From contig JASBSN010000069.1 in NCBI GenBank assembly GCA_030148915.1, positions 1 through 55,290 of the forward strand: a stretch of DNA of 55,290 nt, given 5' to 3'. The stretch comes from Thiogranum sp. (GTDB lineage Bacteria; Pseudomonadota; Gammaproteobacteria; DSM-19610). Positions 3,489 through 55,290 of this stretch are shown piece by piece (positions within the stretch are counted from its first letter, which is position 1; every line of letters begins with the position of its first letter). Both the position numbers and the translations under genes were made by a program. The notes under the pieces are model-generated. The model did no database searches. It worked only from the letters and a program-made list of their open reading frames with translations, and was not told the origin of the DNA.

Positions 3489-3573
3489 GCGGGTGTGGAG
3501 CGGTAGGGGGTTTTTGGTGCATGTGCCGCTCGCGGCGCCCTAAGCCATCGAGGGACTACCCGACGCAACCTCT
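3489..3573. repeat. hairpin repeat element, copy 1 (degenerate right arm)
   Basis: First of four related intergenic elements. It has the fixed core in order: TTTTTGG (3511-3517), TGCATG (3518-3523), apical stem TGCCGC/GCGGCG around TC (3524-3537) and CCCTAAG (3538-3544). The closing CCAAAAA is broken to CCATCGA, and the right arm matches the left arm (which starts GCGGGTG at 3489) only in traces. It lies between two minus-strand genes, upstream of the Tam41-like gene, unlike the other three copies, which sit between convergent genes. It is probably a decayed member of the family. Confidence 0.7.
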
Positions 3574-16303: not shown

Positions 16304-16607
16304 TCGGCCCTGCAGCAGCGAAAGTCCCGAACCGTCCCACCGGAACACAAACCGCGCCATTCGCCCAGCCCGGCCGAATCCCGACCAGATCATGCTGGAA
16401 GGTCGCAACTCCCGACAGCCCCGATTCGAAGCCCAGCCGCTCCAACCCCGGCCCCCCAATCACTCGCCGCCCCCAAAGTCGTCTGCGCGCCGGTAAGAGG
16501 TTTTTGGTGCATGTGCGTTTTTCGCACCCTAAGCCAAAAACCTCTTACCCTGGTGCAGCGGTAACGGGATCCGTGATCCTTTCGCCAGGCTGGCGGCGAA
16601 TCACCTG
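16304..16607. other. 304-bp convergent intergenic region with repeat copy 2
   Basis: The space between rsmI and queG, which converge, is non-coding in all frames by appearance. Its left two thirds (16304-16478) are C-rich with no motif I recognise; its right part is repeat element copy 2 (16479-16562). The last 45 bp show an imperfect GGGATCCGTGATCC repeat. Confidence 0.7.
16479..16562. repeat. hairpin repeat element, copy 2 (variant apical stem)
   Basis: The core runs TTTTTGG (16501-16507), TGCATG (16508-16513), apical stem TGCG-TTTTT-CGCA (16514-16526), CCCTAAG (16527-16533) and CCAAAAA (16534-16540). The arms adjoining the core pair perfectly for nine bases (GGTAAGAGG with CCTCTTACC) and partially beyond. 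Compared with the other copies, the apical stem has changed on both sides while the unpaired TGCATG and CCCTAAG are unchanged. Confidence 0.85.
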
Positions 16608-30759: not shown

Positions 30760-30844
30760 GCGGGTTTCAGCCGCTAGCGGGTTTTTGGCTTAGGGCGCCG
30801 CGGGCGGCGCATGCACCAAAAACCCGCTACCGGCCGAAACCCGC
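30760..30844. repeat. hairpin repeat element, copy 3 (reverse orientation)
   Basis: An 85-bp element in the opposite orientation to copies 1, 2 and 4. Read on the minus strand the 41-bp core is identical to that of copy 4: TTTTTGG, TGCATG, CGCCGC-CC-GCGGCG, CCCTAAG, CCAAAAA. Two 22-bp arms (30760-30781 and 30823-30844) flank it and match each other at 20 of 22 positions. The outer nine bases of the arms (GCGGGTTTC) are shared with copy 4, the inner thirteen are not. It lies between convergent purA and the transporter ATPase gene. Confidence 0.9.
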
Positions 30845-45293: not shown

Positions 45294-46361
45294 ATGCCAT
45301 CGGTTATACGCCGCTATCTCAGTCAGGAATTGTTGCTCTACTGGCTGGTATTCACGTTGGTGCTGTGGCTGGTGCTGGTCACGGCGCGCTTTTCGCTGTA
45401 TCTGGGCCAGGCGGCTGAAGGTCACCTGCCGGCCGATACTGTGCTGACGTTGCTGGGTCTGAAGTCAGTCGGTTTTTTGGTGTTCCTGTTGCCACTGACG
45501 CTTTTTCTGGCGCTGCTGTGGTTGCTGGGCCGACTCAATCGCGATTACGAGGCGCTGGCGCTGGGTGCCAGTGGCATCGGCCTGTTCCAGCTGTATCGCG
45601 CCCTCAGCATGCCGGTGCTGCTGGTCAGCCTGCTGGTGGCGTTGTTGAGCTTCTATCTGGTGCCCTATACCGCGCAGCAGGGTTACCGCCTGCGCGCCGA
45701 GGCGCAACGCCAGATCGACGCCGGCGCCCTGACACCCGGGCGCTTCCATACGCTGCATAACGGTCGCTGGCTGCTTTATGCCCGGCGTGCCGGCACTGCC
45801 GCCGGTACGCTGGATGAGGTGTTCGTGCATATCCGACAGGATGGCGGATCTCAGGTGCTGGTGGCCAGGCAAGCCGGCTTTCGACAGTTCGGCGATGGCG
45901 AGCGTTTTATGCTGCTGCGCGATGGCTACCGTTACGATACCGATCCGGCTCAGCCCGGCTACCGGGTGCTGCACTATGACGAGTATGCGCTGCGATTGAA
46001 TGCGCCGTTGGCGGAGGACGAACATAAATGGGATGCCGTGAAGACCAGCGCGTTACTCGGTGATACGCGGCCCGAGGCCCAGGCGCAGTTGCAGCTGCGC
46101 GGGTCACGCGCGCTGAGCGTGCTGGTGCTGGGGCTGCTGGCCGTACCCCTGGGGCAGTTCCGCCCCGGCACCAGCCGCTTCTACCCGATGTGGCTGGGAG
46201 TGTTGGTCTTTACAGCGTATTTCAACCTGTTGGGGACCGCTGAAGTATGGCTGGCGCACGGTCAGGTGCCGGGTTGGCTGGGGTTGTGGTGGGTCCATCT
46301 GGGGTTCGTGGCGGCTCTGATCGTACTGGTGAAGCCGTGGCGTTGGCGGCGCGTGGCATGA
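45294..46361 (+). CDS. lptF: LPS export ABC transporter permease LptF
   Basis: LptF, with LptG and LptB2, extracts LPS from the inner membrane. The 355-residue protein starts MPSVIRRYLSQELLLYW and has six transmembrane helices, three before and three after a large periplasmic beta-jellyroll (about 130-260), with YLVPYTAQQGYRLRAEAQRQIDAG after helix 3. The C-terminal LLAVPLGQFRPGTSRFYPMWLGVLVF block is typical. Upstream ATG codons at 45201 and 45255 are open in frame but less likely. It overlaps lptG by four bases (ATGA). Confidence 0.94.
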   Translation: MPSVIRRYLSQELLLYWLVFTLVLWLVLVTARFSLYLGQAAEGHLPADTVLTLLGLKSVGFLVFLLPLTLFLALLWLLGRLNRDYEALALGASGIGLFQLYRALSMPVLLVSLLVALLSFYLVPYTAQQGYRLRAEAQRQIDAGALTPGRFHTLHNGRWLLYARRAGTAAGTLDEVFVHIRQDGGSQVLVARQAGFRQFGDGERFMLLRDGYRYDTDPAQPGYRVLHYDEYALRLNAPLAEDEHKWDAVKTSALLGDTRPEAQAQLQLRGSRALSVLVLGLLAVPLGQFRPGTSRFYPMWLGVLVFTAYFNLLGTAEVWLAHGQVPGWLGLWWVHLGFVAALIVLVKPWRWRRVA

Positions 46362-47425
46362 ATCGCCTGGACCGTTACCTTGGCCGCGCCGTGTTCAGCG
46401 CCACGCTGCTCGCCTGGGTGACCGTCGCCATGCTCGATGCGCTGTTTGTGTTGCTCGGACAGTTGGGTGATATCGGGCGGGGTGATTACGCCTTTGCCGA
46501 TGCACTGCTTTACGTACTGCTTACCTTACCGACACGTGCGTGGCAGATGTTCGCAATGGCAGTACTGATCGGCGTTGCGCTCGGACTGGGCAATCTCGCC
46601 GAACAGCGGGAGCTCGAAGCGTTCCGTCTGGCGGGTTGCTCACCACGACGACTGATGCTGGCGGTGATCAAGACCGGCCTTCTGTTGCTGGGTGTAGCGA
46701 TGGCGCTGGGCGAAGGTTTGGCGCCACATACCCAACAACTGGCGCTGCAGATCCGCAGCACGGCTATCTACGCCGATCTCGGCATACAACCTGATGCGGG
46801 TTTCTGGATGCGCGACGGGCAGCGCTTTATCCAGGTCACGCGCAGCGAGACTGACGGCAGCCTCAGCGGTGTGGTGGTCTATGAGCTGAGTGGCGAAGCG
46901 CGTCTCGCGCGGATCGTCACCGCCGCGCGCGCCTTGGCGCGCAACGGACGCTGGCAGCTTGAGACCGTTAAGGTGAGGCAATTCCACGAACGCAGGATCG
47001 ACATATCGCATCAGCCGAACGCGCAGTGGACAGCGCTGATAAATCCGCGTCTGGCGAGGCTGCTGACGCGCGACCCCGACACCCTGTCGCTAGCGCAACT
47101 GAGCGAATATATCGCTTACCTGCAGCGTAACGGCAGCGATGTCGGTGCCTGGCGGTTGAACTTCTGGCAGCGGCTGGCGGCGCCGCTGGGGGTGATGGCC
47201 ATGCTGGTGCTGGCCGCTGCACTGGTGCTCGGGGGACTCGGGCGGCGTCCGGTGGGCCAGCGGTTGCTGATCGCGGTACTGGCCGGACTGACCTTCAAAT
47301 TACTCAGTGGCGTGATCGCCCACGCCGGTCTGGTGTATGGATGGGGTGCTGCTCTGAGTGCGCTGACGCCTCCCCTGGCGGTATTGCTGGCCGCAGGCGG
47401 CGTCGTATTGCGGCAGCAGCGTTAA
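46358..47425 (+). CDS. lptG: LPS export ABC transporter permease LptG
   Basis: The partner of LptF: 355 residues, start MNRLDRYLGRAVFSATLLAW, six helices and a periplasmic jellyroll (about 140-260), including FWMRDGQRFIQV. The cytoplasmic coupling region LAEQRELEAFRLAGCSPRRLM between helices 2 and 3 carries the Glu-rich LptB contact. Ends 50 bp before repeat copy 4 and converges with the RDD gene. Confidence 0.95.
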   Translation: MNRLDRYLGRAVFSATLLAWVTVAMLDALFVLLGQLGDIGRGDYAFADALLYVLLTLPTRAWQMFAMAVLIGVALGLGNLAEQRELEAFRLAGCSPRRLMLAVIKTGLLLLGVAMALGEGLAPHTQQLALQIRSTAIYADLGIQPDAGFWMRDGQRFIQVTRSETDGSLSGVVVYELSGEARLARIVTAARALARNGRWQLETVKVRQFHERRIDISHQPNAQWTALINPRLARLLTRDPDTLSLAQLSEYIAYLQRNGSDVGAWRLNFWQRLAAPLGVMAMLVLAAALVLGGLGRRPVGQRLLIAVLAGLTFKLLSGVIAHAGLVYGWGAALSALTPPLAVLLAAGGVVLRQQR

Positions 47426-47475
47426 CAGGCTCCGGAGCAATAAAAGTAAGGAAAGATGATGGCGCGTCCGATAAA

Positions 47476-47560
47476 GCGGGTTTCACCCGATGCCAGGTTT
47501 TTGGTGCATGCGCCGCCCGCGGCGCCCTAAGCCAAAAACCTGGCATCGGGTGAAACCCGC
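47476..47560. repeat. hairpin repeat element, copy 4 (best-preserved)
   Basis: An 85-bp near-perfect hairpin. Two 22-bp arms (47476-47497 and 47539-47560), exactly complementary, enclose a 41-bp core: TTTTTGG (47498-47504), TGCATG (47505-47510), CGCCGC-CC-GCGGCG (47511-47524), CCCTAAG (47525-47531), CCAAAAA (47532-47538). TGCATG and CCCTAAG face each other and cannot pair. The arms start GCGGGTTTC as in copy 3, then differ from it. It lies between convergent lptG and the RDD gene. Confidence 0.92.
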
Positions 47561-47606
47561 CTGCACCGACCAAGCTACGAGCAAAGCTGGTGTTGCAGGC
47601 GCCGGT

Positions 47607-48068
47607 TTATGCGCCGCCGCGCCGGTAGCGCAGCGGATTTTCGTCGAGTTGTACGATAGTCGTTTCCGAGTAACGGTCGTGCCAGCTCAGATGCTTGCGG
47701 TCGACCAGGAGCCACAAATAGCCCAACCCGAACAGCAGGCCCGAAGGTACCGCCACCAGAAAACGTAACATGATCTGCCACCAGCTCAACGCCCCGGGGC
47801 GTAGATTGCGCAACTGCAGTTTCCAGGCGCGCATGCCGAGCGTCTGCCCGCCGTGCATCCAGAACCAGCCGTAAAAAAAGAACGCCACGAACATCAGATA
47901 GGTGGTCAACAGCGGATTGTGCGGCGCGATGGCCTGACCGTGGTTAAACGCCAGCACCAGGGCGACGGCGATAAACCACAGCGCCAACAGCAGCAGGCTG
48001 TCGTAAAACAGCGCGGCGAGGCGCTTGATCAGCCCTGCAGGTCTGGGTGTGTTATCGGGTGTCGACAT
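47607..48068 (-). CDS. RDD family membrane protein
   Basis: A 153-residue protein with PRPAGLIKRLAALFYDSLLLL at the start (the Arg and Asp that name the RDD family), three hydrophobic helices and the TLGMRAWKLQLRN segment after helix 2, ending HDRYSETTIVQL. RDD proteins are thought to act in transport or stress but none of this subtype is well characterised. The frame is open to 48134; ATG 48068 is preferred. It diverges from the DUF2173 operon. Confidence 0.85.
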   Translation of the reverse strand: MSTPDNTPRPAGLIKRLAALFYDSLLLLALWFIAVALVLAFNHGQAIAPHNPLLTTYLMFVAFFFYGWFWMHGGQTLGMRAWKLQLRNLRPGALSWWQIMLRFLVAVPSGLLFGLGYLWLLVDRKHLSWHDRYSETTIVQLDENPLRYRRGGA

Positions 48069-48127
48069 GGCTGCCATCCTGTTGACGCTGGCGCGACTGT
48101 AGCGCCGAAGCCCTCGCGCTGACAACG

Positions 48128-55199: not shown

Positions 55200-55290
55200 G
55201 GAGAGGTGCCGGAGCTGGCCGAACGGGCTTGACTCGAAATCAAGTGAACGCGCGAGCGTTCCGAGGGTTCGAATCCCTCCCTCTCCGCCA
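55200..55290 (+). tRNA. tRNA-Ser (anticodon CGA)
   Basis: A 91-nt type II tRNA ending exactly at the window edge with encoded CCA. It has a 7-bp acceptor stem (GGAGAGG with CCTCTCC), discriminator G, the anticodon arm CTTGA-CTCGAAA-TCAAG reading UCG, a long variable arm (about CGCGCGAGCG) and the T arm GAGGGTTCGAATCCCTC. Confidence 0.97.

Follow-up and report, generated by a model that had tools for sequence, protein, structure and literature searches.

What kind of element is the hairpin at positions 47476 to 47560 of this Thiogranum contig, and what keeps a small unpaired patch constant within helices whose sequence varies? We followed the element from the window, meaning the whole analyzed stretch of 55,290 nucleotides, into the host genome and its relatives. 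A preliminary description of the window had named four intergenic copies sharing the order TTTTTGG, TGCATG, apical stem, CCCTAAG, CCAAAAA, and had taken conserved unpaired bases inside variable helices as the mark of a structure recognized by a protein or active as a folded single strand. The copies and their neighbors are given below, where T and C denote two arm classes and genes were predicted from codon usage by a gene caller trained on the window.

47476-47560, plus strand: T-class hairpin (sequence; fold; arm pairing 27/27; locus L004)
47476-47502 with 47534-47560, plus strand: arms of this hairpin, 27 bp outside the core (arm pairing)
47506-47509, plus strand: GCAT, conserved unpaired loop, 5' side (fold; invariant in the 32-copy alignment)
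47510-47525, plus strand: apical stem-loop GCGCCG-CCCG-CGGCGC (fold; stem co-varies between copies)
47526-47530, plus strand: CCTAA, conserved unpaired loop, 3' side (fold; invariant in the 32-copy alignment)
47561-47569, plus strand: conserved T-class outer flank CTGCACCGA (alignment)
46337-47425, plus strand: gene upstream of the 47476 hairpin and directed at it (gene caller)
47607-48077, minus strand: gene beyond the hairpin and directed at it, completing a convergent pair (gene caller)
30760-30844, minus strand: T-class hairpin with convergent genes on either side (core match, fold, gene caller)
16479-16562, plus strand: T-class hairpin with a short apical stem and a TTTTT loop, convergent genes on either side
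3489-3573, plus strand: chimera of a T-class left arm, an intact core (3516-3546) and a C-class right arm, with no fold

Three of the four copies, those at 47476, 16479 and 30760, have the common order and fold far better than their shuffled sequences (z -11.6, -7.4 and -8.3, respectively). The fourth does not: in the chimera at 3489-3573, CCCTAAGCC is followed by ATCGAGGGACTACCC instead of AAAAA, and because its right arm is CCATCGAGGGACTACCC no hairpin forms, the fold being no better than shuffles (z +0.8). The predicted fold also narrows the unpaired patch. TGCATG and CCCTAAG had been described as opposed and unpaired; only GCAT and CCTAA are so, for the T preceding GCAT forms a T.G pair and the G following it pairs with C. 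Similarly, the statement that the paired parts vary applies to the lower and apical stems but not to TTTTTGG and CCAAAAA, which are paired and practically invariant within the T class. On the other strand, the base of T hairpins (e.g., 47471-47478 with 47559-47569) reads GGTGCAGGCGG / CCGCTTTA and looks like the core motif GGTGCATGCG / CGCCCTAAG in diverged and inverted form. A tRNA gene lies at the window edge (55200-55287; Rfam RF00005, 54.6 bits).

The family extends well beyond the window. A search of the host genome (3.2 Mb in 135 contigs), which gives a lower bound, found about 70 cores at approximately 49 sites; the working totals, 49 sites and 72 cores, are estimates, since a few copies may appear twice or be cut in two at contig ends and one core (in L056) looks spurious. 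The exact pattern TTTTTGGTGCATG-N-CCCTAAGCCAAAAA occurs 32 times genome-wide and the looser TGCATG-N-CCTAAGCC 61 times, while neither reversed pattern occurs at all. The hairpins are thus real, with chance excluded by the reversed controls, and the preliminary description was right to see a large, dispersed family in its four copies. Elements are often located at contig ends (C2, C17, C25, C26, C31, C32, C36, C37, C53, C55, C56, C75, C87, C97, C113 and C135), where the assembly therefore seems to break, so that copies may be undercounted or some of them counted twice. The first 170 bases of contig C26 (L014 / L155) hold, at a contig end, a hairpin whose arms are perfect over at least 40 bp and appear to continue much further; this may be a long palindrome or else the product of an assembly folding back on itself. 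Palindromes resembling CGTCATTCCGGCGCAGGCCGGAATCC adjoin some elements (L267, at about 700-800, and near the elements of L022 and L024); they look like CGTC-tagged REPs, and the two repeat systems may share intergenic sites.

Covariance modeling and direct reading agree that one core is carried by two classes of hairpin. The arms run GGTTTTTGG..CCAAAAACC in the T class and CCTCGATGG..CCATCGAGG in the C class, with approximately AAAGCGGGTTTCGNCCGGTNCNGGGTTTTTGG and CCCAGAGGTTCAGCCGGGCAGGCCCTCGATGG, respectively, preceding the core, and the outer flanks are conserved too (CCTGCACCGA for T, CCTCGGACC for C). Elements are about 85 nt long, with a median of 27 bp of arm outside the core. At about 20 of the 49 sites a T and a C hairpin occur together, usually inverted and with cores 130-150 bp apart; we read such a pair as the full unit, a heterodimer in which two long hairpins flank a spacer in inverted order. 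Single hairpins and T/C chimeras account for many copies, and chimeras with an intact core are found at 3489 in the window, elsewhere in the host genome and at several loci of the relative G001. A few hairpins are inverted relative to their own outer flanks (3 of 31 classifiable T copies and 1 of 17 C copies). The preliminary description, which drew on one window only, had missed these flipped hairpins, as well as the existence of a C class, its pairing with T hairpins and the chimeric state of one window copy.

Within a copy the arms match closely, and between copies they differ widely. Arm identity between copies is 56-60%, with approximately 97% Watson-Crick pairing within a copy (1755 of 1805 arm cells in 68 distinct palindromic copies); the core is 95-98% identical, a figure inflated in part by ascertainment, since the core itself served to find most copies. 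Two-sided changes occur at 22 of 32 pairs in the T alignment, and the covariation score of 0.532 compares with 0.144 +/- 0.011 in shuffles (reached by none of 500) and no more than 0.090 in slid controls, so that covariation of the helices far exceeds both. The apical stem beyond the loop likewise co-varies, yet none of the copies examined had a loop that was paired throughout, which suggests that selection probably forbids repair of the loop.

Copies in related genomes indicate that these changes occurred in place. We recognized about eight copies in G001, two in G011 and one each in G004 and G014, and none in the other 12 genomes of the genus examined. Judged by flanking genes, several sites occupy the same place in different species. 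At one orthologous site, the T arms of the host genome (L017) and G001 (L240) have 11 of 27 bases in common while pairing at 26/27 and 27/27 positions, respectively; at a site beside a gene that reads in translation like hemE, seven arm positions distinguish G004 from G014, with five changes two-sided and two one-sided. Both comparisons show arms changing in place together with their partners, and orthologous sites with both arms changed imply an old family whose members have been passed down in place. The core stays across species while the arms change, although it is unpaired, which bears out its reported conservation and fits recognition of a folded strand. At the 47476 locus, where the 47607-48077 gene has orthologues in most of the genus, the aligned relatives lack the element, but their intergenic DNA is too diverged to define element ends or a target duplication. 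In G001 the spacer orthologous to 47426-47606 (L222, contig C136) has a GTAG-tagged palindrome, GTAGGTTGGGTTGAGCGCAGCGAAACCCAAC, in place of the hairpin, so that the same spacer holds a different repeat family. G001 also carries a T/C chimera beside an inverted repeat of more than 100 bases at two contig starts (L261 and L263; C106 and C190), which may be a larger mobile element that has captured half of a hairpin.

Scans with nearly exact cores turned up no palindrome carrying the core beyond the genus. In 369 genomes of the class, the core had a single match outside the host genome, which is non-palindromic, and nearly exact cores outside the genus came to nine matches in viral contigs and two in named genomes (Colwellia and Nodosilinea); as the viral, Colwellia and Nodosilinea matches lack complementary arms, we attribute them to chance. 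G019, from another genus of the same family, gave only a weak covariance-model match, the sequence of which is a different hairpin.

Template switching in replication produces two-sided stem changes and maintains stems (PMC8794818), and the flipped hairpins fit template switching as the force that keeps the arms matched; recombination between arms could yield flips equally well.

Most of the elements lie between convergent genes. Among 35 sites with both neighbors called, 21 lie between convergent, 12 between codirectional and two between divergent genes, and 33 are downstream of at least one gene. Their orientation differs from that of other adjacent gene pairs (p = 4e-7), and convergent sites are enriched relative to spacers of 100 bp or more that lack an element (p = 0.0025), with backgrounds for both comparisons obtained by subtraction and thus approximate. 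Preference for convergent gene pairs speaks for intrinsic bidirectional transcription terminators with no further role. However, a T-rich tail follows the stem in none of 62 copies in the core direction and in three of 62 in the other, 47476 has no terminator-like site, and a terminator has no need of a constant unpaired loop; we consider this explanation highly improbable.

Location downstream of genes would also suit a structured RNA in mRNA 3' ends, on which an RNA-binding protein or RNase III acts so that the transcript is protected or trimmed. The RNA fold is very stable, and at codirectional sites six of seven T cores are in the sense orientation; C cores, by contrast, are antisense in six of nine such cases. 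Stems maintained as RNA are expected to pass through G-U intermediates, but the arm mismatches in the 68 distinct palindromic copies (19 GT, 12 AC and 19 other) show no significant excess of GT over AC (p = 0.28), so that the arms neither favor RNA over DNA nor single out a strand. Nor does Rfam place the hairpin: no entry matches it in the window at the gathering score, and a permissive threshold returns only microRNA-like hairpins. The GAAA tetraloop receptor, CCUAAG/UAUGG, was considered for CCTAAG and rejected, as the opposite strand, UGCAU, does not fit. Overall, an RNA element is possible, if on balance doubtful.

Inverted hairpin pairs after genes are REPIN-like, and a RAYT-type transposase co-occurring with the elements had been suggested as a check. 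The host genome does encode one intact Y1 gene, and GTAG appears at the loop on the other strand in four C or T copies (CCCTACGCC), as might be expected of a REPIN population that is, or recently was, mobilized by a RAYT. Across the host genome and the genus we nevertheless found no association. The ends of the host Y1 gene, GGGGTCAG.., are unrelated to the element, and no core lies beside it. Three carriers, G004, G011 and G014, have no Y1 match in genomes that are incomplete (86-95%), many non-carriers have one, and the arms are too diverged for recent spread. RAYT mobilization, current or recent, is therefore improbable in our judgment. The Y1 gene itself (246 aa; L065, contig C100, 1110-1950) has inverted GGGGTCAGAGTAAAAA-like ends, read by eye, which fit the GGGGWSAS motif of TIR-associated tyrosine transposases (PMC3733652).

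Comparison with described systems places the family near REPs and BIMEs. Like the GTAG superfamily, it consists of many intergenic palindromes, mostly at convergent or codirectional positions, and REPs show a comparable distribution over gene orientations (PMC3733652; PMC8266576). REP families also form inverted heterodimers after genes (PMC3733652), and the E. coli REP has a conserved mismatch bulge in its stem that TnpA-REP requires (PMC8266576), matching the inverted heterodimers with spacers and the conserved unpaired stem feature seen here. The roughly 20 of 49 T/C sites, mostly inverted, have the alternating palindromes and regular spacing of BIMEs in the loose sense, elements for which binding of gyrase, IHF or Pol I is a further criterion. 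Unlike GTAG REPs, which measure 20-40 bp with a fairly constant stem of 6-13 bp and a terminal GTAG tag, the elements are about 85 nt long with stems of 26-27 bp that are nearly free in sequence, and they have no linked RAYT; on the loop strand TTAG is the usual reading, GTAG being found in only 4 of 68 copies, and the motif is internal, not terminal. Inverted palindrome pairs persisting by vertical inheritance recall REPINs (PMC3116915, PMC8049555), which go with a RAYT gene, whereas the three carriers just named have no Y1 match and we found no linked or co-occurring RAYT. TIR-associated tyrosine transposase elements and composite TIRs of P. putida and P. fluorescens similarly combine a REP-like unit with longer inverted repeats in many copies (PMC3733652); they differ in flanking tyrosine transposase genes. 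Since the family falls outside the GTAG REP superfamily and REPINs in these properties and works most like REP/BIME, we place it as REP/BIME-like, outside both.

Another parallel is the integron attC site, a folded single strand with free-sequence arms and conserved unpaired bases recognized by a protein, whose hallmarks are the R boxes RYYYAAC / GTTRRRY and the IntI integrase. The elements share with attC the free arms and conserved unpaired bases but are scattered after ordinary genes, not arranged in cassette arrays, and no R boxes were seen by eye in the aligned copies. No named family matched, but the layout is less novel than the preliminary description held, with the E. coli REP bulge and REP heterodimers as precedents; a mainly open-access literature search found no paper combining Thiogranum with repeats and palindromes, and novelty is accordingly provisional.

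Taken as a whole, we lean, with modest confidence, toward an old, genus-restricted, vertically inherited REP/BIME-like family whose loop is recognized in folded form by a protein. In each hairpin GCAT faces CCTAA in one and the same asymmetric internal loop, atop a 26-27-bp stem, and this loop may be read by a protein as TnpA-REP reads the REP bulge; the unpaired core patch is probably what the protein recognizes. Recognition would hold the loop constant and unpaired, and the stem would be needed only as a stem, leaving its sequence largely free. Template switching in replication could rewrite one arm with the other as template, which would give rise to double changes and, occasionally, to inversion of a hairpin. 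Copies may once have spread as non-autonomous elements and would now mostly be passed on at the sites they occupy, being tolerated chiefly in positions downstream of genes. We offer more tentatively, and consider unlikely in its full form, the specific proposal that the loop is the docking site of a non-Y1 protein on folded DNA, confined to one genus, on a palindrome continually mended by template switching.

If the docking-site and mending proposal is true, repair of the arms and selection on the loop can be read separately in a natural system. Dozens of long hairpins with drifting yet matched arms and an unmended asymmetric loop make an unusually clean natural experiment, in which selection for pairing and mutational re-copying inside a palindrome, forces that tend to be confounded, come apart. 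The family also carries a warning that strong covariation alone does not prove an RNA functional. If a partner for the loop is found, it could extend the known ways of folded-strand recognition in bacteria beyond the GTAG/RAYT systems.
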